From Hyphomicrobiales bacterium (lineage in GTDB: Bacteria > Pseudomonadota > Alphaproteobacteria > Rhizobiales > Rhizobiaceae): a stretch of 64,000 nucleotides of DNA. Positions 1-11,822 of the stretch are shown piece by piece. Location of the stretch: NCBI GenBank assembly GCA_900466605.1, contig UBMU01000002.1, positions 248,001-312,000 on the forward strand. The letters run 5' to 3'. Made by a program: the position numbers and the translations under genes. Position 1 is the first letter of the stretch, and the number at the start of each line of letters is the position of its first letter. Below the pieces are notes generated by a model. That model was not told the DNA's origin and searched no databases. It saw only the letters and a list, made by a program, of their open reading frames with translations.

Positions 1-55
1 TGACGTGGAAATGCTTGACGAGATTTTCGATCTTCAGCAGCGGTTGGGCGCCCAT
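1..55 (-). CDS. dppF: Oligopeptide/dipeptide ABC transporter ATP-binding protein, DppF/OppF type (partial, N-terminus only)
   Basis: Only the first 18 codons lie in the window, reading [18 protein letters not shown], which is the usual opening of DppF/OppF-type ATPases. The start ATG shares bases with the stop codon of the upstream ATPase gene (ATGA overlap), so the two are translationally coupled. It would be the second ATPase of the five-gene peptide-type importer encoded on this strand. No Walker motif is inside the window, so the call rests on the N-terminal sequence and the operon position. Confidence 0.75.
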   Translation of the reverse strand, partial: MGAQPLLKIENLVKHFHV

Positions 56-1062
56 CACGCAGCCTCCTGCATTTTGTGAACAACGAAGCAAGCCGCCCGG
101 TGATTGCCAGCACCGGCTACCGGCTCCAGCTTCGGCACCCGCTCGTGACAGACCGGCTCGGCCAGCGGGCAGCGCGGCGCAAACGGGCAGCCCTTCGGCC
201 GGCGGCCCGGCTCGGGCGGCGTGCCGCCGATCGAGGAAAGCCGGCTTGCCGGTGCGTCCGACAGTTTCGGGATAGAGGCGAGCAGACCGCGCGTATAGGG
301 ATGGCTTGGTCGTGCATAGAGCGCATCGACCGGTGCATCCTCGACGACGGTGCCGGCGTAAAGCACGGCAACGCGGTCAACGAGACCGGCAATCAGCGCC
401 AGGTCATGGGTGATCCAGACCACGGACATGCCGAGCTTGGCGCGCAGATCCTTCACGAGATCGACGATCTGCGCCTGGATAGTGACGTCGAGTGCCGTCG
501 TCGGCTCGTCGGCAATCAGCAGTTTCGGATTGCAGGCAAGGCCGATCGCGATCATAACGCGCTGGCGCATGCCGCCGGACAGCTCGTGAGGGTAGGCCTG
601 TAGGCGCTCTTCAGGGCCGGGAATGCCGACGAGGCGGAGTAGTTCGACGGCACGAACGCGCGCCTGCGCCTTGCTCATCCCGCGATGATAGATGAGCGGC
701 TCGCAAATCTGGTCGCCCACCCGCATGACCGGGTTCAAGGAAGTCATCGGATCCTGGAAGACGAAGCCGATGTCGCCGCCGCGTACTTTGCGCAGTTCCC
801 TGTTTGACATCTTCTGCAGATCTTTGCCATCAAAGCTGGCGCTGCCGTTGGTCACCTTGATCTTGTTGGGCAGGAGCCGCATCAGGCTCAGCATCGTCAA
901 GCTCTTGCCGCAGCCGGATTCTCCGACAACGCCAAGCGTCTCGCCTTTGTTGACGTAGAGATCGATCCCGTCGACAACAACGGCAGGGCCGTTGCGTCCG
1001 TCGATTTCGACGGTAAGGCCGCGGACGTCGAGCAACCGTTCGTTGGATTTGGTCGTGTTCAT
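55..1062 (-). CDS. dppD: Dipeptide/oligopeptide ABC transporter ATP-binding protein DppD
   Basis: First cytoplasmic ATPase of a peptide-type (DppBCDF) importer, 335 aa. Visible motifs are the Walker A GESGCGKS, the ABC signature LSGGMRQR, the Walker B run [12 protein letters not shown], and the C-terminal oligo_HPY extension with [21 protein letters not shown]-type cysteines, which is typical of this subfamily. The start at 1062 ([13 protein letters not shown]) overlaps the dppC stop by ATGA; the same frame stays open farther upstream but that stretch lies inside dppC. The substrate cannot be read from the ATPase. The neighbouring divergent catabolic genes suggest an acidic sugar or oligosaccharide rather than a peptide, which is inference. 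Confidence 0.93.
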
Positions 1063-2024
1063 CACTTGCTGCCCCGCGGATTGAGTGCGTCGTTGAGGCC
1101 ATCGCCGAGGAAGCTGAAAGCAACCGAGGCAAGGCCGAGGACGGCTGCCGGTGCGGCGAGGAGATGGGGATAGTGCTGCCAAACACGCAGACCATCGGAG
1201 ATCATGTTGCCCCAGCTTGGGGTGGGGGGATTGACGCCGACGCCGAGGAAGCTGAAGGCGCTCTCCAGAACCATCGCGGTGCCAAGACCAGCGCTGACGG
1301 AGACGATGAGCGGTCCCAGCGCGTTTGGCACCACGTAGCGCTTCATGATGACCCAGTTGGAAAGGCCGAGAGCCTGCGCCGCGGTGATATAGGGACGGCT
1401 GCGGATCGACAATACCTGGGCACGAACGAGACGTGCGTAGGGCGGCCAGGAGATCAGTGCCATCGAGCCGAAGACAAGGAAGAAGTCGACCCAGATCGTC
1501 TGGCGGTAGAACGGATTGAGGGTTGCCATATATTGGGCCTCCATCCATTTCGCGATCGGCGTTTTCAGGGATGCGTTGATAACGACCACGAGCAACAGGT
1601 TCGGGACTGACATTGTCACATCTGTCAACCACATGATGGCACTGTCGAACGGGTTGCCAAAAAAGCCGGCGATGGCGCCGAGCACGAGGCCGATCACCAC
1701 GGCGATAAAGGTCACGACGATCGCCACCATGAAGGCGGTGCGCGTCCCGAAGACGACGCGGCTGAAGACGTCACGACCGAGATCGTCGGTGCCGAACAGA
1801 TGGTGCAGCGAAGGAACGGCGTTTCGAGCCTGCAGGTCCTGGCTGAGATAATCGTAAGGCGCAAAATACGGGCCGAAGATTGCGGTGAAGGCCAGGATCA
1901 GCACGATGACGAGGCCGAACAGGGCAAGCTTGTTGCGCTTCAGGCGGTACCACGCATCACGCCATAGGTTGACAGGAGGTTCTTCCTGCGTCGTTTCAAT
2001 TGTAGTCAGAGGGATGGCGGACAT
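1062..2024 (-). CDS. dppC: Dipeptide/oligopeptide ABC transporter permease DppC
   Basis: Inner-membrane permease of 320 aa with the DppC/OppC layout: a cytoplasmic N-terminal tail, a first membrane segment near residues 30-55 (KLALFGLVIVLILAF), a periplasmic loop containing FGTDDLGRDVFSRVV, and then the BPD_transp_1 core of about five helices. The loop motif GTDxLGRDxxSR is diagnostic for DppC-type permeases. A good ribosome site (AAGGAG) precedes the ATG. The gene sits 2 bp after dppB and overlaps dppD by 1 bp, so it is part of one transcript. Confidence 0.94.
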   Translation of the reverse strand: MSAIPLTTIETTQEEPPVNLWRDAWYRLKRNKLALFGLVIVLILAFTAIFGPYFAPYDYLSQDLQARNAVPSLHHLFGTDDLGRDVFSRVVFGTRTAFMVAIVVTFIAVVIGLVLGAIAGFFGNPFDSAIMWLTDVTMSVPNLLLVVVINASLKTPIAKWMEAQYMATLNPFYRQTIWVDFFLVFGSMALISWPPYARLVRAQVLSIRSRPYITAAQALGLSNWVIMKRYVVPNALGPLIVSVSAGLGTAMVLESAFSFLGVGVNPPTPSWGNMISDGLRVWQHYPHLLAAPAAVLGLASVAFSFLGDGLNDALNPRGSK

Positions 2025-2026
2025 GG

Positions 2027-2983
2027 TCAGCGGCTCCTTCTTGCATCGTTGGCGCGCGGATCAAGCAGCGGGTAAAGCACATCGACCAGCAGGTTCGAGG
2101 CCATGACCAGGAAGGATCCGATCAGCGTGATTGCCAGAATGACGGGATAGTCCGAGTTGATCAGCGCCTGGACGGTCAGGCGTCCGAGGCCAGGCAGACC
2201 GAAGACGAGTTCCACGAAGATCGCGCCGTTGACGATGGTGATCATGATCAGGCCGAGTTGGGTCACGACAGGCGTCAACACCGGGCGCAGGATGTGGCGC
2301 AGTGCGACGACGATCTCAGGGACGCCCTTGGCGCGGGCTGTACGCACAAAATCCTCCGACAAAACCTCAATTACCGCAGCGCGCGTCTGACGCACGATTA
2401 GGGCGATCGGCTGAAAGGACAGCACGATCAGCGGCAGGATGATACGAACATCGAAAATGCCGCCCCAGCCATAGGGCACCTTGATCATCGGCAGCAGCAC
2501 GATGAGGGTAACCATCAACAGCGGTCCGGCGACATAGGCGGGGATCGCCCAGAGGAAGAGCGCGCTGCCGAGGATCGTATAGTCGAGCTTTGTGTTCTGG
2601 TTGAGCGCTGCGATCATGCCAAGCGGAATGGCGACGACAGCGGTCAGGATGATGGAACAGAGCGCCAGCTGGAAGGAAACGGGCGCAGCAGCCGAAACCA
2701 TGGCCCATACCGAACGGCCTGATGTCAGCGAGTTGCCGAACTGGCCATGCAGAAGGTTCCAGATGTAAAGTCCGAACTGCACGATGAATGGCTTGTTGAG
2801 GCCGGCGCTTTCGCGGATGGCTTCGATGCGCTGCGGATTGTAGGCAACATCACCGGGTGCGCGCAGAAAGATCAGCTTGATCGGATCGCCGGCGCCATAG
2901 AAGGCCAGCGCGTAGACGGCCAGCATGACTATCAGGACGGACGGAATCCAGATGGCAAACCGGGTTAGCACGTAGCGTAACAA
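2027..2983 (-). CDS. dppB: Dipeptide/oligopeptide ABC transporter permease DppB
   Basis: Inner-membrane permease partner of DppC. The N-terminus LRYVLTRFAIWIPSVLIVML is the classic DppB opening helix, and the BPD_transp_1 core includes the EAA-loop region (VRTARAKGVPEIVVALRHILRP) that contacts the ATPases. I chose a TTG start at 2983 because a strong GGGAGG lies 5 nt upstream; this gives 318 aa. In-frame ATG codons at 3010 and 3034 would add 9 or 17 residues but have poor ribosome sites and add an atypical N-terminus. It follows dppA after a 147-bp gap that holds a strong hairpin. Confidence 0.9.
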   Translation of the reverse strand: MLRYVLTRFAIWIPSVLIVMLAVYALAFYGAGDPIKLIFLRAPGDVAYNPQRIEAIRESAGLNKPFIVQFGLYIWNLLHGQFGNSLTSGRSVWAMVSAAAPVSFQLALCSIILTAVVAIPLGMIAALNQNTKLDYTILGSALFLWAIPAYVAGPLLMVTLIVLLPMIKVPYGWGGIFDVRIILPLIVLSFQPIALIVRQTRAAVIEVLSEDFVRTARAKGVPEIVVALRHILRPVLTPVVTQLGLIMITIVNGAIFVELVFGLPGLGRLTVQALINSDYPVILAITLIGSFLVMASNLLVDVLYPLLDPRANDARRSR

Positions 2984-3060
2984 GGTTACCTCCCACCTGT
3001 TGGTCGGCATGACTCCAAGTGTGGATGGCTCCACAGAGATGCCGTGTCTTCTTGAAACTT

Positions 3061-3130: not shown

Positions 3131-4780
3131 TCAGCCGATCGAAATGTCCCAGGGCGCCACGACCTGCCAGTCGAGGTTCTTTTCCATGCCCTTGACGTCC
3201 TTTGTGGCCCAGCGCGACATCGCCTGAGAATACCACGGAATAAACGCCCAATCGTCGCGGAATGCCTTCTGGGCATCCTGTGCGAGCTTGACGCGCTGCG
3301 GATCGTCGGCTGCCTTCGTGGCAGCTTCGGCGAGGGCAGCATCAACCTTCTCGTTCTTATATCCGCCAAGCTTGTTCTGCGCGTTCGACGAGGTCGAGGC
3401 GATGCAGCCGGTAAGATAGGAAACAGCATCCGGAACGCGGGTACCAACGTCGTCGCGGAAGATCTGGACGGCGTTCTGATCGGGGCCGGCGTAGGAGTCC
3501 TGCTGTGGCTTCATGTCGACGGCCGTGATGCCGAGGTTCTGGCGCCACTGTTCGGCGATGAACTGGGCGGCAGCTTCGATAGCCGGGGCGGAAATACCGA
3601 CGAACAGGATCTTCGGCAGGCGCTCCGGACCGCCGTAACTGGATTCCGCGAGCAGCTTCTTGGCGGCTTCCGGATCATAGGGGTAAGGCTCAAAGCCGGA
3701 ATTGTCGGCGCCGGGGACGGAATTGAGGATCTGGTCTGCCTTCTTGTGCGGCCCGTCAGGATAGGACGCCTTGAACAGTCCGTCGCGATCGATGGCCATG
3801 ACGAGCGCCTGACGAACCTTCGGATCGTCCATCGGCGCGCGATTGATGTTGAACCAGAAATGCTGGCTGGTCGGGATCAGCGGACCGGAGGAGAATTCGG
3901 GCCCGAGATCTTGAATAATAGTGGATGTGACAAGCTCGGTATGCGCGTTGAATTCACCCGATTTGATCAGTGATGTCGCCGTCACATTGTCTTCGACAGA
4001 GGTGACCTCAATACGGGCGAGCTTCGGCTTCGGCCCGAAGAAATTCTCGTTCGGCTCAAACACCAGCTTGCCGGCATCGATATCGAGGCTGGTCAGCTTG
4101 AACGGGCCAGAGAAAACCGGGTTGCTCTCGGGCTTGTACCAATCGGCAACTTCCTCGCCGTCGCTGCCGCGCGACTGCGCTGCCTTGGTAATTGGTGCGA
4201 TGTGGTTGGCGAGGCGCATGAAGAAGATCGGATCGACTTCCGCCAGGGTAACGACGACGGTACCTTCATCAGGCGTTGCGACGCCGGTCAGTTCATTGGC
4301 CGAGCCGCCGCTGATTTCCTTGTAACCCTGAACCTTGCTCAGCACCTGATCGGCACGCTGACTCTTGGTATTGGGCATGGACGCGACTTCCCACGAGCCC
4401 TTGACGTCTGCCGACGTGATTTTGCTGCCATCCGAGAAGACGGCTTTCGGATCGATTTTGAAGGTCCAGACCTTGTTGTCGGGGGATTCCCAGCTGGTGA
4501 AGACATAGGGTTTGATCTTGCCTTCGCTGTCGAAATACATCGGCGAGGCCCACCAGATCGAATTCCAGCGGAAGGGGCGGCCACCCCCGCGTAGCGGCGA
4601 CCAGTCCTGGTCGAACGCGGGATGTGCGGCCTTAAGAACCTGCCCCTCATCGGCAAACACGATGCGGGCGTTCATCCCGAATACTGTGAGGCCCACACCG
4701 GCGGCGAGGCCCAGCTTCAACGCCTCGCGGCGCGACATCTGCGTTCTCTGCGCAGATTTCCCTTCATTGCGATCAGTCAT
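3131..4780 (-). CDS. dppA: ABC transporter substrate-binding protein, peptide/nickel family 5 (SBP_bac_5), Tat-exported
   Basis: Periplasmic solute-binding protein of 549 aa, first gene of the minus-strand importer operon. The N-terminus carries a twin-arginine signal (SRREALKLG at about residues 16-24, then a hydrophobic stretch to about residue 43), so export in folded form by Tat is predicted. The mature part has the family layout, including WTFKIDPKAVFSDGSKITSADV, which is the family-5 binding-protein signature region. Start 4780 is preceded by GGGAGGACAAC; an upstream in-frame ATG at 4816 has no such site. Family 5 proteins bind peptides, but also oligosaccharides, nickel and opines. The divergent sugar-acid type genes make a non-peptide ligand plausible. 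Confidence 0.9.
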   Translation of the reverse strand: MTDRNEGKSAQRTQMSRREALKLGLAAGVGLTVFGMNARIVFADEGQVLKAAHPAFDQDWSPLRGGGRPFRWNSIWWASPMYFDSEGKIKPYVFTSWESPDNKVWTFKIDPKAVFSDGSKITSADVKGSWEVASMPNTKSQRADQVLSKVQGYKEISGGSANELTGVATPDEGTVVVTLAEVDPIFFMRLANHIAPITKAAQSRGSDGEEVADWYKPESNPVFSGPFKLTSLDIDAGKLVFEPNENFFGPKPKLARIEVTSVEDNVTATSLIKSGEFNAHTELVTSTIIQDLGPEFSSGPLIPTSQHFWFNINRAPMDDPKVRQALVMAIDRDGLFKASYPDGPHKKADQILNSVPGADNSGFEPYPYDPEAAKKLLAESSYGGPERLPKILFVGISAPAIEAAAQFIAEQWRQNLGITAVDMKPQQDSYAGPDQNAVQIFRDDVGTRVPDAVSYLTGCIASTSSNAQNKLGGYKNEKVDAALAEAATKAADDPQRVKLAQDAQKAFRDDWAFIPWYSQAMSRWATKDVKGMEKNLDWQVVAPWDISIG

Positions 4781-5086
4781 GTTGTCCTCCCATGGCAAAA
4801 TCAATGACGCCTCCACTTTCCACTCTATCCCGAAAGTGTGTCACGACATGGCGCAGACACTCGCTCGATAATGTAAATATGTCAACATAAATTAATGATG
4901 CTGAGATCCACGGAAAAATACAAAAGTTTTTATTGTTTATTTTCAGATGCTTAAAAAATGATCCGATTGCCGCATCGTATTGTCATATTGACAACATGCG
5001 TTGTGAGGATGAAGAAACCTGCATCTTGCGGGCCCGAATTGCCTGCCTTGGCCGCTATCGATGCGGCATTCGTCGAGGAGGACGAT
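4781..5086. promoter_or_regulatory. Divergent promoter region between the importer operon and the catabolic operon
   Basis: A 306-bp AT-rich region with no gene, separating outward-reading dppA and the DHDPS-family gene. It contains the inverted repeat TTGTCA-N3-TGACAA at 4980-4994 and the imperfect palindrome TATGT-CA-ACATA at 4878-4889. I could not fix convincing -35/-10 boxes. Shared control of transporter and enzymes from this region is expected from the layout. Confidence 0.7.
4980..4994. promoter_or_regulatory. Operator-like inverted repeat TTGTCA-TAT-TGACAA
   Basis: Perfect 6-bp arms around a 3-bp centre, 93 bp upstream of the DHDPS-family start. Size and composition resemble operators of GntR-family (FadR/NanR subfamily) repressors, which often control sugar-acid and sialic-acid-like operons. 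No regulator gene is present in the window, so the assignment is only by resemblance. Confidence 0.45.
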
Positions 5087-5992
5087 ATGAGCGATCACAA
5101 AATTACAGGCGTATTCAGTGCGGCGGCTACGCCGCTCAATGCAGATGGTAGCCCGGATCTTGGTTTGTTCACCGATCATTGCCAGCGACTGCTGCAGGAA
5201 GGTTGCCACGGTGTTGCTCTGCTTGGCACGACGGGAGAAGCAAATTCCTTCTCTTCCGGCGAGCGTCGCACGATTCTTGAGGCGGCGCTCAAGGCAGGCG
5301 TTCCGGCCGACAAGCTGCTGCCCGGGACTGGCGTTGTCGCCATCCCGGAAACGGTGGAGTTGACAAAACATGCACTGTCACTCGGCGTGACAAAGGTCGT
5401 GACGCTGCCGCCCTTCTACTATAAGGGCGTATCCGATGACGGGTTGTTTGCTGCCTACTCGCAAGTACTGGAGAAGGTTGCCGACAACCGTCTGCGGGTC
5501 ATTCTCTACCACATCCCGCAGGTCTCGGGCGTTCCGCTTTCTATCCCCTTGATCGGTCGGCTGATTGAGGCTTTTCCAGACACAGTGGTTGGCATTAAGG
5601 AATCCGCTGGAGATTTCAATAACATGCAGGAAATCATCAAAGCCTATCCGGGCTTTTCTGTCCTAGCTGGAGCCGATCCGTTACTACTGCCACTGTTGAA
5701 AGCGGGCGGTGCCGGCTGCATTACGGCAACCTCCAATCTTGTCGCGGATTCACTGCGCACGGTATACGACAAGGTTCACGATGAGGCGCAGGCTGGCGAG
5801 GTCGATGCAGCGCAGGCCCGCATCAATGCCTACCGAACGCTATCCAATTCCTATGTGCAGATTCCCACGATCAAGGCCATGGTGGGGCTAAAAACAGGCA
5901 ATGATGCATGGCGGCGAACGCGCGCACCGCTAATGCCGATCAGCGATGCCGACCATGCCGCGCTTGCCGAAGCCTATGCTAAGCTGCCGTAA
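5087..5992 (+). CDS. Dihydrodipicolinate synthase / N-acetylneuraminate lyase superfamily protein
   Basis: Class I (Schiff-base) aldolase/lyase of 301 aa with a TIM-barrel fold. It has the GTTGE loop (residues 47-51), the catalytic Tyr141 in YHIP and the Schiff-base Lys171 in GIKES, so it should be active on a 2-oxo acid such as pyruvate. Start 5087 has GAGGAGG 5 nt upstream; the open frame extends farther but without a ribosome site. Context argues against lysine-biosynthetic DapA: it leads a catabolic operon with a sialidase-fold protein and several dehydrogenases. A 2-keto-3-deoxy-sugar-acid aldolase or dehydratase, or a NanA-like lyase, is more likely, but the exact substrate cannot be read from sequence. 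Confidence 0.9.
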   Translation: MSDHKITGVFSAAATPLNADGSPDLGLFTDHCQRLLQEGCHGVALLGTTGEANSFSSGERRTILEAALKAGVPADKLLPGTGVVAIPETVELTKHALSLGVTKVVTLPPFYYKGVSDDGLFAAYSQVLEKVADNRLRVILYHIPQVSGVPLSIPLIGRLIEAFPDTVVGIKESAGDFNNMQEIIKAYPGFSVLAGADPLLLPLLKAGGAGCITATSNLVADSLRTVYDKVHDEAQAGEVDAAQARINAYRTLSNSYVQIPTIKAMVGLKTGNDAWRRTRAPLMPISDADHAALAEAYAKLP

Positions 5993-6004
5993 GGAGTTGT
6001 GACC

Positions 6005-7192
6005 ATGAGCTTTACTGGTCTGCCCCCTGAACTCGTTCCGGCGCTCATGACCGGAGAGATCATTGCGAATTCGAGCGAGAAGGGGCGTGCCGACGCCTAT
6101 CTCCACTCTCCCTGCATTCAGAACCATGCTGCCAATCTCGCTTTTCTCCCCAATGGGGTGCTGACGTGTGTTTGGTTCGGCGGCACAATGGAGGGCATGG
6201 GAGACATCTCCATTTACATGTCGCGACTGGAGCCGGGAGCAACACGGTGGTCGCAACCGGAAAAAATGTCGGACGACGTGGCAAAATCCGAGCAAAACCC
6301 TCTTGTTTTCAATGCACCGGGCGGAGATGTCTGGCTGCTTTACACCTCCCAGACGTCGGGTAACCAGGACGGGTCTGTTGTCAAGTGTCGTATCTCGGCA
6401 GATGGCGGCAGAACATTCGGCGAGGTGCGCGTTCTCTGTGATATCCCGGGCACGTTCGTGCGCCAACCGATCGTCGTCAACGATCGTGGTACCTGGCTGC
6501 TGCCGATCTTTCGCTGTGTCGGATTGTCCGGCGAACGCTGGACCGGAGATGTCGACACGGCGGCTGTCCTGATCTCGCGCGATCAGGGCAAGAGCTGGGC
6601 GATGACCGAGGTCCCGGACAGCATTGGAGCGGTTCATATGAACATCGTGCCGATCGGTGGCGACAAACTCGTGGCCTTCTATCGCAACCGCTTTTCCGAA
6701 TCTGTGTTGTCCAGCCGCTCGACCGATGGTGGCGAGCATTGGAGCGCACCCCAGCCCATTGATCTGCCGAACAACAACTCTTCCATTCAGGCAACGAAGC
6801 TTGAAAATGGAGTAATCGCAATGGTTTATAACCATTGCAATGCTTTGATGTCGGATGCCAGGCGCCTGTCGCTGTATGACGAGATCGAGGGTGATCAAGA
6901 AGTGAAGGTGGCGCCGGCGGAGATAGTCGAGCGTCGCAAGGCTGTTTGGGGCGTGCCTCGAGCGCCGCTCAGTCTTGCGTTTTCGAGCGACAACGGGGCA
7001 AGCTTCCCTCGCCGCGTCGACCTCGATACCGGAGATGGATATTGCCTTAGCAACAACTCGAAGGACTCGGTCAATCGGGAGTTTTCGTATCCTTCGATCG
7101 TGCAAGGGCCAGATGGTTTCATCCACGTCGCTTATACCTACTACCGGCGTGCCATAAAATACGTGCGGCTATCGACTGACGCGATTGCGTAA
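6005..7192 (+). CDS. Sialidase-fold (BNR/Asp-box) protein, cytosolic
   Basis: A 395-aa predicted beta-propeller of the predicted-neuraminidase (BNR_2-like) group. Four Asp boxes are visible: SADGGRTF (131-138), SRDQGKSW (191-198), STDGGEHW (239-246) and SSDNGASF (327-334). There is no signal peptide, so it should act in the cytosol on imported material. Start ATG 6005 sits 8 nt after AAGGAG; a GTG at 5999 would be too close. Only 12 bp separate it from the lyase gene. The family includes glycoside hydrolases, and related propellers include polysaccharide lyases. No nan genes (nanE, nanK) are nearby, so true sialic acid hydrolysis is not implied. Confidence 0.82.
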   Translation: MSFTGLPPELVPALMTGEIIANSSEKGRADAYLHSPCIQNHAANLAFLPNGVLTCVWFGGTMEGMGDISIYMSRLEPGATRWSQPEKMSDDVAKSEQNPLVFNAPGGDVWLLYTSQTSGNQDGSVVKCRISADGGRTFGEVRVLCDIPGTFVRQPIVVNDRGTWLLPIFRCVGLSGERWTGDVDTAAVLISRDQGKSWAMTEVPDSIGAVHMNIVPIGGDKLVAFYRNRFSESVLSSRSTDGGEHWSAPQPIDLPNNNSSIQATKLENGVIAMVYNHCNALMSDARRLSLYDEIEGDQEVKVAPAEIVERRKAVWGVPRAPLSLAFSSDNGASFPRRVDLDTGDGYCLSNNSKDSVNREFSYPSIVQGPDGFIHVAYTYYRRAIKYVRLSTDAIA

Positions 7193-7538
7193 CGACCCTG
7201 ACGGGGTTGCCAGTTGTGAATGTTCCAATCCGGCGCGGTCCGCCAGGCAGGGCAATCGCGCCGGAATCCTGTCATTTTTTACAAATTTATGCGATGTAGC
7301 TCGGCTCTTCTTTTGCCAAAATGGCATCGGGCATCTTCAATCCATATGCTGTATTTTATTGTTTAATTTCATTGCTATACGATAGTACCGCGGGCATTTT
7401 ATCGCGATGCAAAAGCTAGCGGGCGTACAAATTTTCTAAACCAACCCACGTCGCTGCTTGCCAAATGTGTCTACATTGTATAACAAATTTACATCTTGGC
7501 GGCGTAGACGCCGCTGCATTGCAGGGAGGAGTGATCCA
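7193..7538. promoter_or_regulatory. Intergenic region upstream of the iron-type alcohol dehydrogenase gene
   Basis: 346 bp with no supported gene. The central part (about 7270-7385) is AT-rich and promoter-like. Near 7464-7494 there are overlapping palindromes: AATGT-GTCT-ACATT, then TTGT-ATA-ACAA, then ATTTACAT, the reverse complement of the ATGTAAAT at 4871-4878. This suggests that the second half of the cluster has its own promoter under the same regulator as the first half. The ribosome site GGGAGGAG lies at 7524-7531. Confidence 0.6.
7476..7486. promoter_or_regulatory. Operator-like inverted repeat TTGT-ATA-ACAA
   Basis: Short inverted repeat 53 bp before the GTG start of the alcohol dehydrogenase. 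It is close to the TTGTATACAA-type sites bound by several FadR-subfamily GntR repressors of sugar-acid genes. It partly matches elements in the 4781-5086 divergent promoter. The regulator is not in the window. Confidence 0.4.
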
Positions 7539-8672
7539 GTGGTCAGCTTGGATTCGCCTATCACAATCGTCCGGCCGCATCTGATTGAGTTTGGCGTCGG
7601 CACCGCGGAGCGGCTCGGCAAGTGGGCAGCCGAGAAAGGCTACAGCCGAATCCTGGTTATTTCCGACGCCTTCAATGCAACGCGCGTCGATGTGCTTGCG
7701 CTGAAGGGTGAAGTCACGGTGTTTGCCGACGTCACACCCGAACCGGATACGGCCAATCTGGACAAGGTGCTGGCTGCGGCAAACGCTGCAGATGCCGAGC
7801 TCGTGGTCGGCTTCGGCGGTGGCAGCGCCATGGATCTTGCCAAGCTTGCCGCCGTTCTCGCTGGCTCGTCACAGACGCTGCATGAAGTCGTCGGGCCGAA
7901 CAAGGTCAAGGGACCGCGCCGCGTGGCGCTGGCACAGGTACCGACAACGTCGGGCACTGGCAGTGAAGCAGGAATTCGAGCCCTCGTAACCGATCCAAAG
8001 ACGATGGCCAAGCTTGCTGTCGAGAGCATGCACATGCTGGCCGATATCGCGGTTGTCGATCCGACGCTGACCTTCACCGTGCCCGCGCGCACGACCGCGG
8101 CGACAGGCGTCGACGCCATGGCGCATTGTGTCGAGGCATTCACCAATCGCAAGGCGCATCCGATGATCGACCTCTATGCGATCGAGGGCGCGCGGTTGGT
8201 CGGAAAATATCTGGCCCGTGCTGTCAAGGACGGCTCCGACGCAGAAGCGCGCGCCGGCCTGTCGCTTGCCTCGCTTTACGGCGGCTTCTGTCTCGGTCCT
8301 GTCAACACCGCCGGCGGCCACGCGCTCGCCTATCCGCTCGGCACACGCTGGCATGTGGCGCATGGTGCGGCGAACGCCCTGATCTTCCCACACGTCCTTG
8401 CCTTCAACACGCCAGCCGTCCCCGAGAAGACCCAGGCTGTCGTAGAGGCGCTTGGTCGCGAAGCCTCGGGCAGCATCGAGTCCGTCTTCGATGCGACATA
8501 TGCCTTTTGTGCCGATCTCGGTATCGAAATGAAACTCTCCGGGCTAGGTGTTCCGGAGAGCGATCTGGACGCGATGGCCGACGATGCCTTTGCCATTCGT
8601 CGCTTGCTGGACAACAATCCGCGCGACCTGTCGCGCGCTGATATCCGCTCGATCTACGAAGCCGCCTTTTGA
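7539..8672 (+). CDS. Iron-containing alcohol dehydrogenase family protein (maleylacetate reductase-like)
   Basis: NAD(P)-dependent dehydrogenase of the Fe-ADH superfamily, 377 aa. The nucleotide-binding loop GFGGGSAMDLAKL and the metal-binding histidine segments VDAMAHCVEAF and AHGAANALIFPHV are present. A GTG start at 7539 was chosen because GGGAGGAG lies 7 nt upstream; the frame is open to 7458 but the extra residues are arginine-rich and unlike the family. In this operon it probably oxidises a hydroxyl of a sugar-acid or aldehyde intermediate, which is inference. Maleylacetate reductase proper is less likely because no aromatic ring-cleavage genes are present. Confidence 0.88.
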   Translation: MVSLDSPITIVRPHLIEFGVGTAERLGKWAAEKGYSRILVISDAFNATRVDVLALKGEVTVFADVTPEPDTANLDKVLAAANAADAELVVGFGGGSAMDLAKLAAVLAGSSQTLHEVVGPNKVKGPRRVALAQVPTTSGTGSEAGIRALVTDPKTMAKLAVESMHMLADIAVVDPTLTFTVPARTTAATGVDAMAHCVEAFTNRKAHPMIDLYAIEGARLVGKYLARAVKDGSDAEARAGLSLASLYGGFCLGPVNTAGGHALAYPLGTRWHVAHGAANALIFPHVLAFNTPAVPEKTQAVVEALGREASGSIESVFDATYAFCADLGIEMKLSGLGVPESDLDAMADDAFAIRRLLDNNPRDLSRADIRSIYEAAF

Positions 8673-8700
8673 GGCGCTTTCCATTCAAAGAGGACTGTGA

Positions 8701-9693
8701 GTGATGGACAGGAATGCGAAAGTCGCCGTGACGCTCGGCGATCCGGCGGGCGTCGGCCCCGAGGTCATCGTCAAGGCGCTGGCCGCGATGCCGGAGCAGG
8801 AACGGCGCGATTTTGTCATCGTTGGAAATACCGAGGCGCTTGAGCGCGCCAATCTCACGGCAGCGACCGGACTTTCCTTTGCGCCGGCTGGTGCAGCTGG
8901 CGCTGGCAAAATTGCGGTCGACGAGGTGGAGCTTGGTGCACCGTTGCCTGAAATCGGCAAAGTCAGCCCCGTCGCGGGCGATGCCTCGGTGCGCTACATC
9001 AGCAGGGCGGTCGATCTTGCGATGTCGGGCGATGCTGACGTTATCGTCACTGCGCCAATCAACAAGGAAGCTATGAACCTCGCTGGTCATCACTATGACG
9101 GCCATACTGGCCTTCTGGCGCACCTGACTGGTTCGAAGAGCTCTTTCATGCTGCTTGCCTCCGAGCGGCTGAACACCATCCACGTCTCCACCCATATCTC
9201 GCTCAAGGGCGCGATCGAGCGCGCCAAGACGGAGCGCGTGCTGGCGACGATTGAGGCAGGGCACAATCACTTTATGCGACTGGGCAAGAAGGCGCGGATC
9301 GCGGTTGCCGGTCTCAATCCGCATTGCGGCGAGAACGGCCTGTTCGGCACCGAAGATACCGAATTCCTGGCACCTGCCGTCGAGCTGGCGAAGGCAAGGG
9401 GTATCGATGTCGTTGGTCCTATTTCTGCGGACACCGTGTTTGCTCGTGCTTACAATGGCGCCTTCGATCTGGTTATCGCGCAGTATCACGATCAGGGTCA
9501 TATCCCGATCAAGCTCATCGCCTTCGATACAGCGGTTAACGTTTCGCTCGGCTTGCCGATCGACCGCGTGTCGGTTGATCACGGTACCGCTTTCGATATC
9601 GCCGGCACGGGCAAGGCCAACCATGTGAACATGCTCTCAGCCATCGCCTATGCACGGCTGATGGCGCGGTCTCCGCGCCGGCAAGCGGCTTAG
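8701..9693 (+). CDS. 4-hydroxythreonine-4-phosphate dehydrogenase family protein (PdxA2-like)
   Basis: PdxA-family NAD-dependent dehydrogenase/decarboxylase, 330 aa. Motifs are [11 protein letters not shown] at the N-terminus, the metal-ligand histidine in DGHTG (His135), [12 protein letters not shown] and [15 protein letters not shown] near the C-terminus. The usual GHTE is GHTG here. The catabolic neighbourhood points to the PdxA2 class, which in known D-threonate/D-erythronate pathways works with a DUF1537 kinase. No such kinase lies in the window, so either it is elsewhere or the substrate differs. Start is GTG 8701 or ATG 8704 (AGAGGA 6 or 9 nt upstream). It lies 28 bp after the alcohol dehydrogenase. 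Confidence 0.88.
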
Positions 9694-9771
9694 GGCCCCG
9701 AAAGGTTTCTGCATCGCCGACGGCGCAGTATTGCGCCGCCTGTCGCGTTGCTCGTTGGAGGAGATGGGCGA

Positions 9772-10737
9772 ATGGAAAAGACCGTTGTCATTCTCGGTGG
9801 GGAGTTGGCGCCGGAAGGCCGCACGCTTCTGGAAGATGCCGGAGCAAGTGTCATTGCCACGCCGCCCTATATCGACCGGCAAGCTGTCATAAAAGCAATG
9901 ACGCTGCACAAGCCGGATGCTGTCATTGTTCGGCTGTTGGCTGACCTTCTCGGGCCCGACGAAATGCGGGCCGGCGGGAAGCTCCGGCACATCGCCAAGC
10001 ATGGCGTCGGAACCAATGACATCGATGTGATGGCGGCGACAGCGCTCGGCATCCCGGTATCGATGACGACGGGTAGCAACGGGCACTCCGTCGCCGAGCA
10101 TGCGCTTGCGTTGATCATGACGTTGGTCAAGGATTTGCCGCGCCAGGATGCGCTTATCCGGGACGGCATCTGGGACAAGAACCAGTACAGGGGGCGTGAG
10201 CTGCGCGGCCAGCGGCTGGGCCTCGTCGGCTTAGGCTTTATCGGGCGGACGCTTGCCGGAATGGCTGGAGCGATCGGCATGATTGTCTCGGCCTTCGATC
10301 CCCATGCACAGGAAAGCGCTTTTCAAGACGGGATCGGTCGCGAAACCGATCTCGATGCGCTTCTCGCGAATTCCGACGTCGTCAGCCTCCACTGTCCGCT
10401 GACACCGCAGACGCAGAACTTGATCGATGCGCGTCGCATAGGGCTGATGAAGCAGACTGCTTTCCTGATCAACACGGCGCGCGGTGACGTCGTCGACGAG
10501 AAGGCATTGATTGCTGCACTCGAAGACGGACGCCTGGCCGGAGCCGGTCTCGACAGTTTCGCGGTCGAGCCGCCTGGCATCGACAACCCCTTGTTCCAGC
10601 TCTCGAACACCTTGGTGACGCCGCATGTTGCGGGTGTCACGCTCGATGCGAAACGCGCCGTTTCGATCATGTCGGCTGAGAATGTGTTAGCGGCGCTCGA
10701 TGGCAGGACGCTTGAACCGCGCCTTCTGGCGCGCTGA
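9772..10737 (+). CDS. D-isomer-specific 2-hydroxyacid dehydrogenase (SerA-like)
   Basis: NAD-dependent 2-hydroxyacid dehydrogenase of 321 aa. The Rossmann motif GLVGLGFIG (about residues 145-153), the substrate-domain stretch NTARGDVVDEKAL, and the catalytic histidine in TPHVAGVT are visible. It lacks the ACT domain of long biosynthetic SerA enzymes, so phosphoglycerate dehydrogenase of serine synthesis is unlikely. Start ATG 9772 follows GGAGGAG by 8 nt. Together with the next gene it gives the operon two enzymes able to interconvert 2-oxo and 2-hydroxy acids. Confidence 0.9.
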   Translation: MEKTVVILGGELAPEGRTLLEDAGASVIATPPYIDRQAVIKAMTLHKPDAVIVRLLADLLGPDEMRAGGKLRHIAKHGVGTNDIDVMAATALGIPVSMTTGSNGHSVAEHALALIMTLVKDLPRQDALIRDGIWDKNQYRGRELRGQRLGLVGLGFIGRTLAGMAGAIGMIVSAFDPHAQESAFQDGIGRETDLDALLANSDVVSLHCPLTPQTQNLIDARRIGLMKQTAFLINTARGDVVDEKALIAALEDGRLAGAGLDSFAVEPPGIDNPLFQLSNTLVTPHVAGVTLDAKRAVSIMSAENVLAALDGRTLEPRLLAR

Positions 10738-10772
10738 TTCCGGCTTCGTGCCGGCAACTGATGGAGAAAACC

Positions 10773-11822
10773 ATGGGCGAGACATCTGCTATCCGATATG
10801 CACCGGATACGCTGCGCCAGTTCGTGCGGGCGCTGTTTAGTGCAGCCGGGCTTGAGGAGGAGAAGGCGGCCGCCGTCGCCCACTATCTCGTCGAAGCCGA
10901 TCTAATGGGGCACACGACGCATGGCCTGGCATTGGCCGGCTGGTATCTGCAAAGCATCGACGATGGCGTGATGAAGCGCGAAGGTATGCCGGAGGTCGTG
11001 TCCGACCGCGGTCCTGCCATTGCCTGGCGCGGGCGCCGCCTTCCTGGCGCCTGGCTGACTTCCGAGGCGGTGAAGCTTGCCTGTGAGCGCGCGGCTGCCT
11101 ACGGCACAGCAACGATCGCGATCGCCGACAGCCACCATATCGGTTGCCTCGCCGCCTATCTCACCATCGCTACCGATCGTGGCTACATGGTCAGTATTGC
11201 AAGCTCCAGCCCATCGGGTGCGCAGGTCGCGCCCTTCGGTGGGAGAAAAGGCGTCTATACGCCTAATCCGGTCGCACATGGAATTCCCACGCCCGGCGAC
11301 CCGATTCTGATCGACATCAGCGCGTCGATAACGACGGTCAACATGGCGCAGCGTCTGGTTCGCGAAGGCCGGCAGTATGATTACGAATGGCTGATGGACG
11401 AAAACGGCGAGCCAAGCCGCGACCCGCGGGTGATCGAACGCGGCGGCACGCTCATGCCGGTCGGAGGGCTCGATCACGGCCAGAAGGGTTATGGCATGGC
11501 GCTTCACGTCGAAGCATTCACGCAGGGGCTGGCCGGGCTTGGTCGTGTCGATGAGCTGAAGGGTACGAACGCTGCAGTCACCATCCAGGTTTTCGATCCT
11601 GACGCCTTCGGTGGCCGCGATGCCTTTCTGCGGCAAACAGGCTGGCTCGCGGATGCCTGCCGCAGCAATCCGCCACGGCCGGGCGTTGCCAGTGTACGCC
11701 TGCCGGGAGAAAACGGCCTGGCGCGCAAGCGCAGCGCCGTTGCTGAGGGGGTCGTGTTGCACCCTAACATAATGGCATCACTCGCGCCCCATGCCGAAAG
11801 GCTCGGGGTGGAGATGCCTTAG
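10773..11822 (+). CDS. Ldh/MdcH family NAD(P)-dependent oxidoreductase (malate/L-lactate dehydrogenase family)
   Basis: 349-aa member of the Ldh_2 family (malate/L-lactate, ureidoglycolate and 2,3-diketogulonate reductases). Recognisable segments are HTTHGLALAGWYLQSI, DSHHIGCLAAYL and SPSGAQVAPFGGRKG, with the conserved late GQKGYGMALHVEAFTQ. The start ATG at 10773 follows GGAG; an in-frame ATG 12 nt earlier overlaps that ribosome site. It is the last gene of the cluster, 35 bp after the 2-hydroxyacid dehydrogenase. Its role is probably reduction of a 2-oxo acid or oxidation of a 2-hydroxy acid from the imported compound. Confidence 0.88.
   Translation: MGETSAIRYAPDTLRQFVRALFSAAGLEEEKAAAVAHYLVEADLMGHTTHGLALAGWYLQSIDDGVMKREGMPEVVSDRGPAIAWRGRRLPGAWLTSEAVKLACERAAAYGTATIAIADSHHIGCLAAYLTIATDRGYMVSIASSSPSGAQVAPFGGRKGVYTPNPVAHGIPTPGDPILIDISASITTVNMAQRLVREGRQYDYEWLMDENGEPSRDPRVIERGGTLMPVGGLDHGQKGYGMALHVEAFTQGLAGLGRVDELKGTNAAVTIQVFDPDAFGGRDAFLRQTGWLADACRSNPPRPGVASVRLPGENGLARKRSAVAEGVVLHPNIMASLAPHAERLGVEMP

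Follow-up and report, generated by a model that had tools for sequence, protein, structure and literature searches.

A conserved rhizobial gene set, with relatives in Escherichia coli and Streptomyces, proposed to degrade the keto-deoxy sugar acid Dha

The systems closest to the locus described here, which lies at the left end of a window of 64,000 nucleotides (contig UBMU01000002.1, bases 248001-312000, assembly GCA_900466605.1) in the 6.6 Mb genome of a Hyphomicrobiales bacterium of the Rhizobiaceae, are D-threonate catabolism, reportedly worked out by Zhang et al. in 2016 as a route via DtnK (DUF1537) and PdxA2, and sialic acid catabolism via NanH, NanQ and NanA. With the former the locus shares a four-carbon acid kinase and a PdxA2, the Escherichia coli equivalents of which pass both D-threonate cut-offs, whereas here the pair would supply the lower part of a longer pathway from a C7 keto acid, and the kinase and PdxA belonging to the window locus remain below those cut-offs. 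With the latter it shares the sialidase fold, an aldolase of the N-acetylneuraminate lyase (NAL) family and, at five loci, a YhcH/NanQ-family gene, but no N-acetylmannosamine branch is seen here, a tetronate branch is present instead, and the sialidase-fold protein is apparently cytosolic.

Among individual enzymes, the sialidase-fold protein resembles GH33 and GH181 sialidases in its propeller and, by alignment, in the retention of the Tyr and one Arg, but departs from GH33 in having His or Gln at the Glu position and apparently Glu at the acid/base Asp position; in GH181 it is instead the Tyr that is replaced, by Gln (PMC10067855 and PMC12018670, in the parts available). The bond proposed to be cut is that of the HpaI/GarL aldolase steps, and a member of this family replaces the lyase at two loci (L161, L167), whereas the usual lyase here belongs to the dihydrodipicolinate synthase (DHDPS) family and the semialdehyde would bear two hydroxyls. 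Degradation of rhamnogalacturonan II (RG-II) by Bacteroides, said to have been described by Ndeh et al. in 2017, has a counterpart in the apiosidase, GH78 and GH28 genes of the Streptomyces and Bacteroides finegoldii neighbourhoods, unlike the proteobacterial loci, which were found without the polymer-degrading genes searched for.

The locus and its relatives likely form a genuine, conserved module for catabolism that leads to pyruvate and dihydroxyacetone phosphate (DHAP). We put the probability that 3-deoxy-D-lyxo-2-heptulosarate (Dha), the substrate suggested by the gene content, is what the module degrades at roughly 0.55; to our knowledge, plants contain Dha in RG-II only. A literature search, with most subscription papers outside its reach, found no account of the catabolic fate of Dha and no paper naming both 'heptulosaric' and 'threonate'; in the parts available, PMC6353982 and PMC6854810 merely list Dha as a monomer, and PMC12168206 lists its synthesis in plants as unidentified. 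Tentatively, and at somewhat less than even odds, this would be the first identified Dha catabolic pathway, extending from rhizobia to E. coli and a Streptomyces RG-II locus, with the sialidase-fold protein as the founder of its own family of Dha ketosidases, in which the catalytic pair is altered to Tyr-His/Gln.

Gene content and conservation of the locus

The families of ten window genes were assigned by Pfam and NCBIfam profile scans with equivalog cut-offs, and the starts of the genes for the solute-binding protein (SBP), the DHDPS-family lyase, the BNR_2 protein, the iron-containing alcohol dehydrogenase (Fe-ADH), PdxA and the D-2-hydroxyacid dehydrogenase (D2HDH) were re-set from the sequence. 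The features are as follows, in window coordinates unless a contig position is given.

Contig 245214-246005, minus strand: GntR gene, behind dppF, outside the window
Contig ~246002-247084, minus strand: DUF1537 four-carbon acid sugar kinase, behind dppF (Pfam SBD_N and NBD_C)
1-91, minus strand: dppF-type ATPase gene, 5' end only, the remainder left of the window
55-1062, minus strand: Opp/Dpp-type ABC ATPase, DppD (Pfam/NCBIfam; 5' end by eye)
1062-2024, minus strand: ABC permease of DppC/OppC type (profile scan)
2027-3034, minus strand: ABC permease of DppB/OppB type (profile scan)
3131-4780, minus strand: family-5 solute-binding protein (SBP_bac_5) with a twin-arginine-type signal (profile scan; start from the sequence)
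4980-4994, no strand: perfect palindrome TTGTCATATTGACAA, candidate GntR operator in the divergent promoter region (pattern search)
5087-5992, plus strand: DHDPS/NAL-family lyase, proposed Dha aldolase (profile scan; Tyr141 and Lys171)
6005-7192, plus strand: cytosolic sialidase-fold (BNR_2) protein, proposed Dha ketosidase (profile, alignment, predicted structure)
7539-8672, plus strand: Fe-ADH, proposed reductase of a C4 semialdehyde acid (profile scan)
8704-9693, plus strand: PdxA2-type dehydrogenase, proposed D-threonate 4-phosphate dehydrogenase (profile scan)
9772-10737, plus strand: D2HDH (2-Hacid_dh), accessory (profile scan)
10761-11822, plus strand: Ldh_2-family oxidoreductase (Ldh2), accessory (profile scan)

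The order GntR-kinase-DppF-D-C-B-SBP thus diverges from lyase-BNR-FeADH-PdxA-D2HDH-Ldh2. The families read in the preliminary description of this DNA were all matched in Pfam/NCBIfam (SBP_bac_5, two Opp-type permeases, ATPase, DHDPS, BNR_2, Fe-ADH, PdxA, 2-Hacid_dh and Ldh_2), as were, by eye, its twin-arginine-type N-terminus of the binding protein (SRREALK) and, counting from the start at 5087, its catalytic lyase residues Tyr141 (in YHIP) and Lys171 (in GIKES). Its statement that PdxA2 lacks its partner kinase here proved wrong: the kinase seemed missing because the window edge cut the locus, dppF lying mostly outside, to the left, and the DUF1537 gene standing just beyond that edge with domains that pass Pfam (SBD_N 113.2 bits, cut-off 25; NBD_C 58.6, cut-off 28.3). 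The source genome holds four family matches to DUF1537, three to PdxA and twelve to DHDPS, and this locus is the only one where a kinase gene and a pdxA are no more than 20 kb apart. The reported lack of nanE and nanK holds for the genes scanned, the genome itself not having been searched for them.

All loci used for comparison were picked via the sialidase-fold gene, the sets overlap and several genomes recur among the named contigs, so that the counts describe neighbourhoods of this gene and not independent events. Four sets comprise 149 loci: 80 named; 40 from the family, out of 48 matching genomes (two of the 48 being weak matches, one of which, L069, is included); 20 wider ones, chosen for spread out of 37 matching order and phylum-sample genomes; and 9 annotated plasmid or E. 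coli records. The sialidase-fold gene was found in 48 of 297 family genomes, two of them weakly, in 32 of 297 order genomes and in 11 of 398 phylum-sample genomes, these samples sharing genomes, and the closest named matches of the window's copy are from Rhizobium. Five core genes, those for the sialidase-fold protein, the DHDPS-type lyase, Fe-ADH, the DUF1537 kinase and PdxA2, stand together in 75 of the 80 named loci, 34 of the 40 family loci, 10 of the 20 wider loci and 7 of the 9 annotated records. Gene by gene, GntR, the lyase and PdxA were each found in 79 of the 80 named loci, SBP in 78, Fe-ADH in 77 and the kinase in 75 (77 with additional kinase queries). The enzymes therefore do co-occur elsewhere, which the preliminary description had proposed to check, and a chance assembly of the genes is rejected on the strong conservation of the core set. 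Its placing of four dehydrogenases in one pathway stands for Fe-ADH and PdxA only: D2HDH and Ldh2 (18/80 and 17/80 named loci) are accessory, and a single pathway using all four is rejected on these counts. Relatives of D2HDH and/or Ldh2 recur in L060, L156 and L160.

The palindrome TTGTCATATTGACAA is the sole match of the searched pattern within the window; the pattern recurs in the intergenic regions of 23 of 69 relatives (in 16 of these as exactly TTGTCATATTGACAA) and in 0 of 71 gaps between the BNR and Fe-ADH genes. Through this candidate operator, GntR would probably control both operons. The gap between BNR and Fe-ADH (7193-7538), some 345 gene-free bases that are similar in many relatives, maybe holds a second promoter or a small RNA. 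Directly beyond the GntR gene lie thiamine-synthesis-like genes (thiC/thiO/thiG/thiE by eye; L031 565-4975), and in a divergent group of loci, L169 (16845-18845, by eye) and L170 (16935-18899, by Pfam), a PrpR-type sigma-54 activator adjoins the module.

Proposed route and the E. coli island

We infer all steps of the route from homology and chemistry. The Opp-type importer would take up Dha or a small Dha ketoside, from which the cytosolic sialidase-fold protein would release Dha from its 2-ketosidic partner; the DHDPS/NAL-type lyase would then cleave Dha by retro-aldol reaction to pyruvate and 2,3-dihydroxy-4-oxobutanoate, in effect DapA in reverse, a C7 diacid giving pyruvate and a C4 semialdehyde acid. 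Reduction of this aldehyde by Fe-ADH would yield D-threonate, phosphorylation by the DUF1537 kinase D-threonate 4-phosphate, and oxidation with decarboxylation by PdxA2 DHAP and CO2, so that the C7 acid would end as pyruvate, DHAP and CO2. Inversion at C2 by a pair of opposite 2-hydroxyacid dehydrogenases has a parallel in sulfolactate metabolism, and D2HDH and Ldh2 may be such an epimerising pair, feeding in other tetronates.

With the kinase included, the lower half would be the known D-threonate route to DHAP, contrary to the earlier statement that no known pathway fits fully. Given a kinase and PdxA2 acting on D-threonate, and a lyase that yields pyruvate plus an aldehyde reduced by Fe-ADH or a short-chain dehydrogenase/reductase (SDR), the substrate would be a C7 2-keto-3-deoxy dicarboxylate. 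When the eight 3-deoxy-2-heptulosarates are compared as Fischer projections, only D-lyxo and D-xylo give D-threonate. Dha is the D-lyxo form (PMC12168206, in part), a stereochemistry that fits the route via D-threonate. The preliminary proposal, import of an acidic keto-deoxy sugar or its glycoside followed by cleavage to pyruvate and an aldehyde for the dehydrogenases, thus fits in its core, save that two of the four dehydrogenases are accessory.

The D-threonate assignment comes from an island between glnS and nagE of E. coli E2348/69, the one island read gene by gene, with genes for DeoR, D-threonate 4-phosphate dehydrogenase, dtnK, Fe-ADH, a DHDPS-family protein, a TerC-family protein, a sialidase-family protein, a NanQ/TabA/YiaL-family protein and an SLC13 permease. 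Its kinase scores 533.5 against the NCBIfam D-threonate kinase cut-off of 450 and its dehydrogenase 680.3 against the D-threonate 4-phosphate dehydrogenase cut-off of 583, both passing. The sialidase-family gene was matched in 1043 of 5426 genomes, about a fifth (nucleotide matches, 60-80% identical, the best covering 79% of the query). The permease passes Pfam CitMHS (87 bits, cut-off 31.9), and a dicarboxylate substrate would fit such a citrate-type permease. For the anomerase-like protein, the score exceeds the YhcH/YjgK/YiaL cut-off and falls short of that for N-acetylneuraminate anomerase (91.5/160), so that the protein need not act on N-acetylneuraminate; PMC8141875 (in the part available) describes YhcH as the ring-opening enzyme that prepares sialate for its aldolase. 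The TerC-family gene (L191 11123-11881) is not annotated in the other island versions read. The same island is region GR6 (nagE..glnS) of strain BEN2908 in PMC12928451 (2026), which notes a Sinorhizobium meliloti counterpart and assigns the kinase/PdxA2 pair to pyridoxal 5'-phosphate (PLP) synthesis; the available part of that paper proposes neither a substrate nor a pathway for GR6.

The sialidase-fold protein and the lyase

The sialidase-fold protein matches Pfam BNR_2 at 220.9 bits (cut-off 31.4), and its AlphaFold model (pLDDT 87.0, pTM 0.89) bears out the propeller, matching solved sialidases with Z 34.1-37.2 and rmsd 2.0-3.2 over 304-332 residues (best 50 matches). Inspection by eye agrees with the earlier reading that it has no signal peptide; N-terminal hydropathy gave no clean separation from a secreted protein (highest value 1.61 among 33 sialidase-fold proteins, against 1.73 for the binding protein), so that the call rests on inspection.

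By the definition in PMC12018670 (in part), GH33 enzymes carry an Arg triad, a Tyr/Glu pair and an Asp. Tyr364 of the window protein is kept in 14 of 14 diverse sequences, and its B. finegoldii equivalent aligns in HMMER with a Tyr of NanB. We take that Tyr to be catalytic Tyr653, and likewise presume that the other NanB residues facing the positions discussed here are catalytic, including the Glu partner of the Tyr. At the Glu position, His213 aligns with the Glu of NanB and NanC (HMMER) and is invariant in 25 sequences; among the 14 diverse ones, 11 have His at this position and 3 have Gln. Glu65, invariant in 14/14, stands opposite the NanB Asp, presumably the acid/base residue 270, only in a weak 3.7-bit stretch (HMMER), and Arg229, also invariant in 14/14, aligns with one sialidase Arg (HMMER). 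His43 and Arg321, as further candidates for the Arg triad, are motif guesses, the equivalent of Arg321 not aligning on an Arg. By these residues the protein appears not to be a canonical GH33 member; ketosidase is the function that we favour, at even odds, the alternatives being a mutarotase or a lactonase. Structure 5mqr, which we take to be BT1020 of GH143, the Dha hydrolase family of Bacteroides, appeared as a match with an E of only 0.047, and its absence from the other matches listed carries no weight.

A comparison of five curated lyases aligned the Schiff-base Lys171 and the catalytic Tyr141 of the window lyase with those of the four others, in line with class I NAL/DHDPS enzymes. The lyase lies under the equivalog cut-off of DapA, 4-hydroxy-tetrahydrodipicolinate synthase (137.8/206.15), and far below those of NanA (99.8/382 and 115.6/281). 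Its YHIPQVSG stretch lacks an Arg at the position of DapA Arg138, which we take to bind the semialdehyde carboxylate; that Arg is present in the lyases of E. coli and Agrobacterium (IPART).

Exchange of parts, genomic contexts and other substrates

The core set stays when the importer changes. Other than Opp ABC, Pfam identified importers of SSS (L147, L163), TRAP (L045) and MFS (L156) type and a TctC-type binding protein (L164), while E. coli carries SLC13 and a Comamonadaceae plasmid TTT. The lyase varies as well: that of the window and that of Agrobacterium are 27% identical, Streptomyces has a third type, and a DHDPS relative is missing in 7 of 149 loci. In two of these seven, L167 and L161, an HpcH/HpaI-family aldolase is encoded instead (Pfam 148.7 bits; the two copies are 70% alike). 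Its gene immediately precedes those for kinase, PdxA and Fe-ADH in L167 and lies directly beside BNR in L161; at the ~70% level it occurs in no locus with DHDPS, and the other match among the 149 loci, in L160, is 32% identical. The nearest NCBIfam models are 4-hydroxy-2-oxoheptanedioate aldolase (293/368.8) and 2-dehydro-3-deoxyglucarate aldolase (286.7/393). In both of these HpaI/GarL-type reactions a keto-dicarboxylate is cut to pyruvate and a semialdehyde acid, and 4-hydroxy-2-oxoheptanedioate is Dha minus two hydroxyls. This replacement raises the odds of Dha and slightly lowers those of the two-branch, vitamin B6 and sialic acid explanations weighed below. Fe-ADH is missing in 14 of 149 loci, six of which (L047, L138, L140, L162, L165, L166) share one type of SDR, with 70-75% identity to the L047 copy, that was found at >=40% identity in no locus with Fe-ADH. 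A second SDR type, of 229 aa, was seen in 14 loci (L152, L153, L147, L156 and others), mostly with non-ABC importers. The chemistry of the module would be kept when importer, lyase or redox enzyme is swapped.

The link to RG-II comes from Streptomyces. On plasmid NZ_CP108139.1 (L198/L199/L200) the region at ~76-161 kb is RG-II-like over some 85 kb and looks like a whole RG-II utilisation locus. Its sialidase-fold gene, 34% identical to that of the window and 41% to that of E. coli, belongs to the run lyase-SBP-permease-permease-ATPase-ATPase-BNR-apiosidase-DUF5605, surrounded by genes for GH127, GH28 (three annotated), pectinesterase, GH78 (two), GH95, GH2 and, by annotation, alpha-L-fucosidase, and further by transketolase halves, a RuBisCO-like protein and an OiaK-like kinase (264, cut-off 700). 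Apiose, beta-arabinofuranose and Dha meet in RG-II. A second kinase lies with pdxA and deoR at 158063-161279, 30 kb away, beside an aldo/keto reductase. Actinobacteria were covered by two Streptomyces plasmids with 98% identical sialidase-fold proteins, that of NBC_00841 being unannotated. In Bacteroides finegoldii (L204 2226-6092) a BNR_2 domain, 24% identical, is fused to a GH78 rhamnosidase beside an apiosidase, and the fusion is a plausible enzyme for cleaving Rha-Kdo (Kdo, 3-deoxy-D-manno-octulosonate).

Several observations weigh against Dha as the substrate or against the route as drawn. For the window proteins, the putative D-threonate assignment derives from E. coli, where lyase and Fe-ADH share only 25% and 34% identity with their window counterparts; kinase and PdxA remain under the D-threonate cut-offs both in the window locus (140/450 and 310.9/583) and in Streptomyces (75.2/450 and 331.9/583). 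The E. coli permease is under the NCBIfam DASS cut-off (56.7/198.6), the HpaI-type aldolase is under every NCBIfam cut-off, importers of small acids are not obviously able to bring in a glycoside, and, with His or Gln opposite the sialidase Glu, hydrolysis by the sialidase-fold protein is only proposed. Relatives of the Streptomyces apiosidase, GH127, GH28, GH78, pectinesterase, RuBisCO-like and transketolase genes were found in 0/40, 0/80 and 0/20 loci, and RG-II genes adjoin the module in Streptomyces only among the loci compared; this absence is why the proteobacterial loci look like scavengers of released pieces, and it also weakens the RG-II link. The Streptomyces lyase could act on Kdo. 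In L154 and L069 (the latter with a protein only 28% identical) all four remaining core genes are missing, three core genes are missing in L046, L048 (near a contig end) and L149, and L169 and L170 lack Fe-ADH and PdxA. By the queries used L161 also lacks all other four, yet has the substitute lyase.

Some of this would suit the same chemistry on another substrate, the D-xylo C7 3-deoxy-2-heptulosarate or a different keto-dicarboxylate of microbial or algal origin leading to a tetronate, with the RG-II genes in Streptomyces a coincidence. Two stereoisomers, D-lyxo and D-xylo, do remain, the searched pectin genes occur in 0/140 loci, and some carriers are not obviously plant-associated, e.g. 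Roseicitreum from Antarctic sediment; set against the ~85 kb of RG-II-like Streptomyces sequence, and given that we know of no natural sugar of this kind besides Dha, this reading seems rather unlikely. Two parallel branches, in which the sialidase-fold protein splits a glycoside and the lyase takes one half (as in Kdo to pyruvate and D-arabinose) while kinase and PdxA2 take a tetronate from the other, are improbable: every core gene is used by one linear route, the annotation shows no arabinose-type gene in the island of E. coli or in that on pRL9 of R. leguminosarum/johnstonii 3841 (RL_RS26360 to RL_RS26405), and the lyase is replaceable by an aldolase family that cuts keto-dicarboxylates, which Kdo is not. 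They would draw on the fact that RG-II also contains Kdo, as stated in a source seen in part, and on the B. finegoldii BNR_2-rhamnosidase fusion, which would suit a Rha-Kdo side chain.

A vitamin B6 side route, with kinase and PdxA2 recycling 4-hydroxythreonine into PLP synthesis, would leave lyase, sialidase-fold protein and importer unexplained, and the genome has two other PdxA-family genes. A B6 role of DUF1537 was proposed by Thiaville et al. 2016, as cited in the available parts of PMC7954711 and PMC12928451, the latter also giving the E. coli pair its PLP role, and the window PdxA passes the equivalog TIGR00557 (340.6, cut-off 290.35); PMC9997740 (in part), however, places PdxA2 under organic-acid catabolism, and we regard this route as very improbable. 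Catabolism of a sialic acid or related nonulosonate, to which the sialidase fold, the NAL-family lyase and the YhcH/NanQ-family gene of five relatives point, is less credible still, since such a pathway has no use for the four-carbon acid kinase and PdxA2, nanE and nanK were found neither among the locus genes scanned nor in the annotation of the two islands (E. coli and pRL9), the NanA cut-offs lie far above the lyase scores, and the anomerase of E. coli falls short of the cut-off for N-acetylneuraminate anomerase.

Degradation of Dha thus remains our preferred reading, and the gene set, which root bacteria share with some strains of E. coli and with a Streptomyces, has the look of a complete Dha route. 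If this is true, it would give a function to the rhizobial genes annotated 'exo-alpha-sialidase' and likewise to an island in E. coli that invites misreading as part of sialic-acid or vitamin B6 metabolism.

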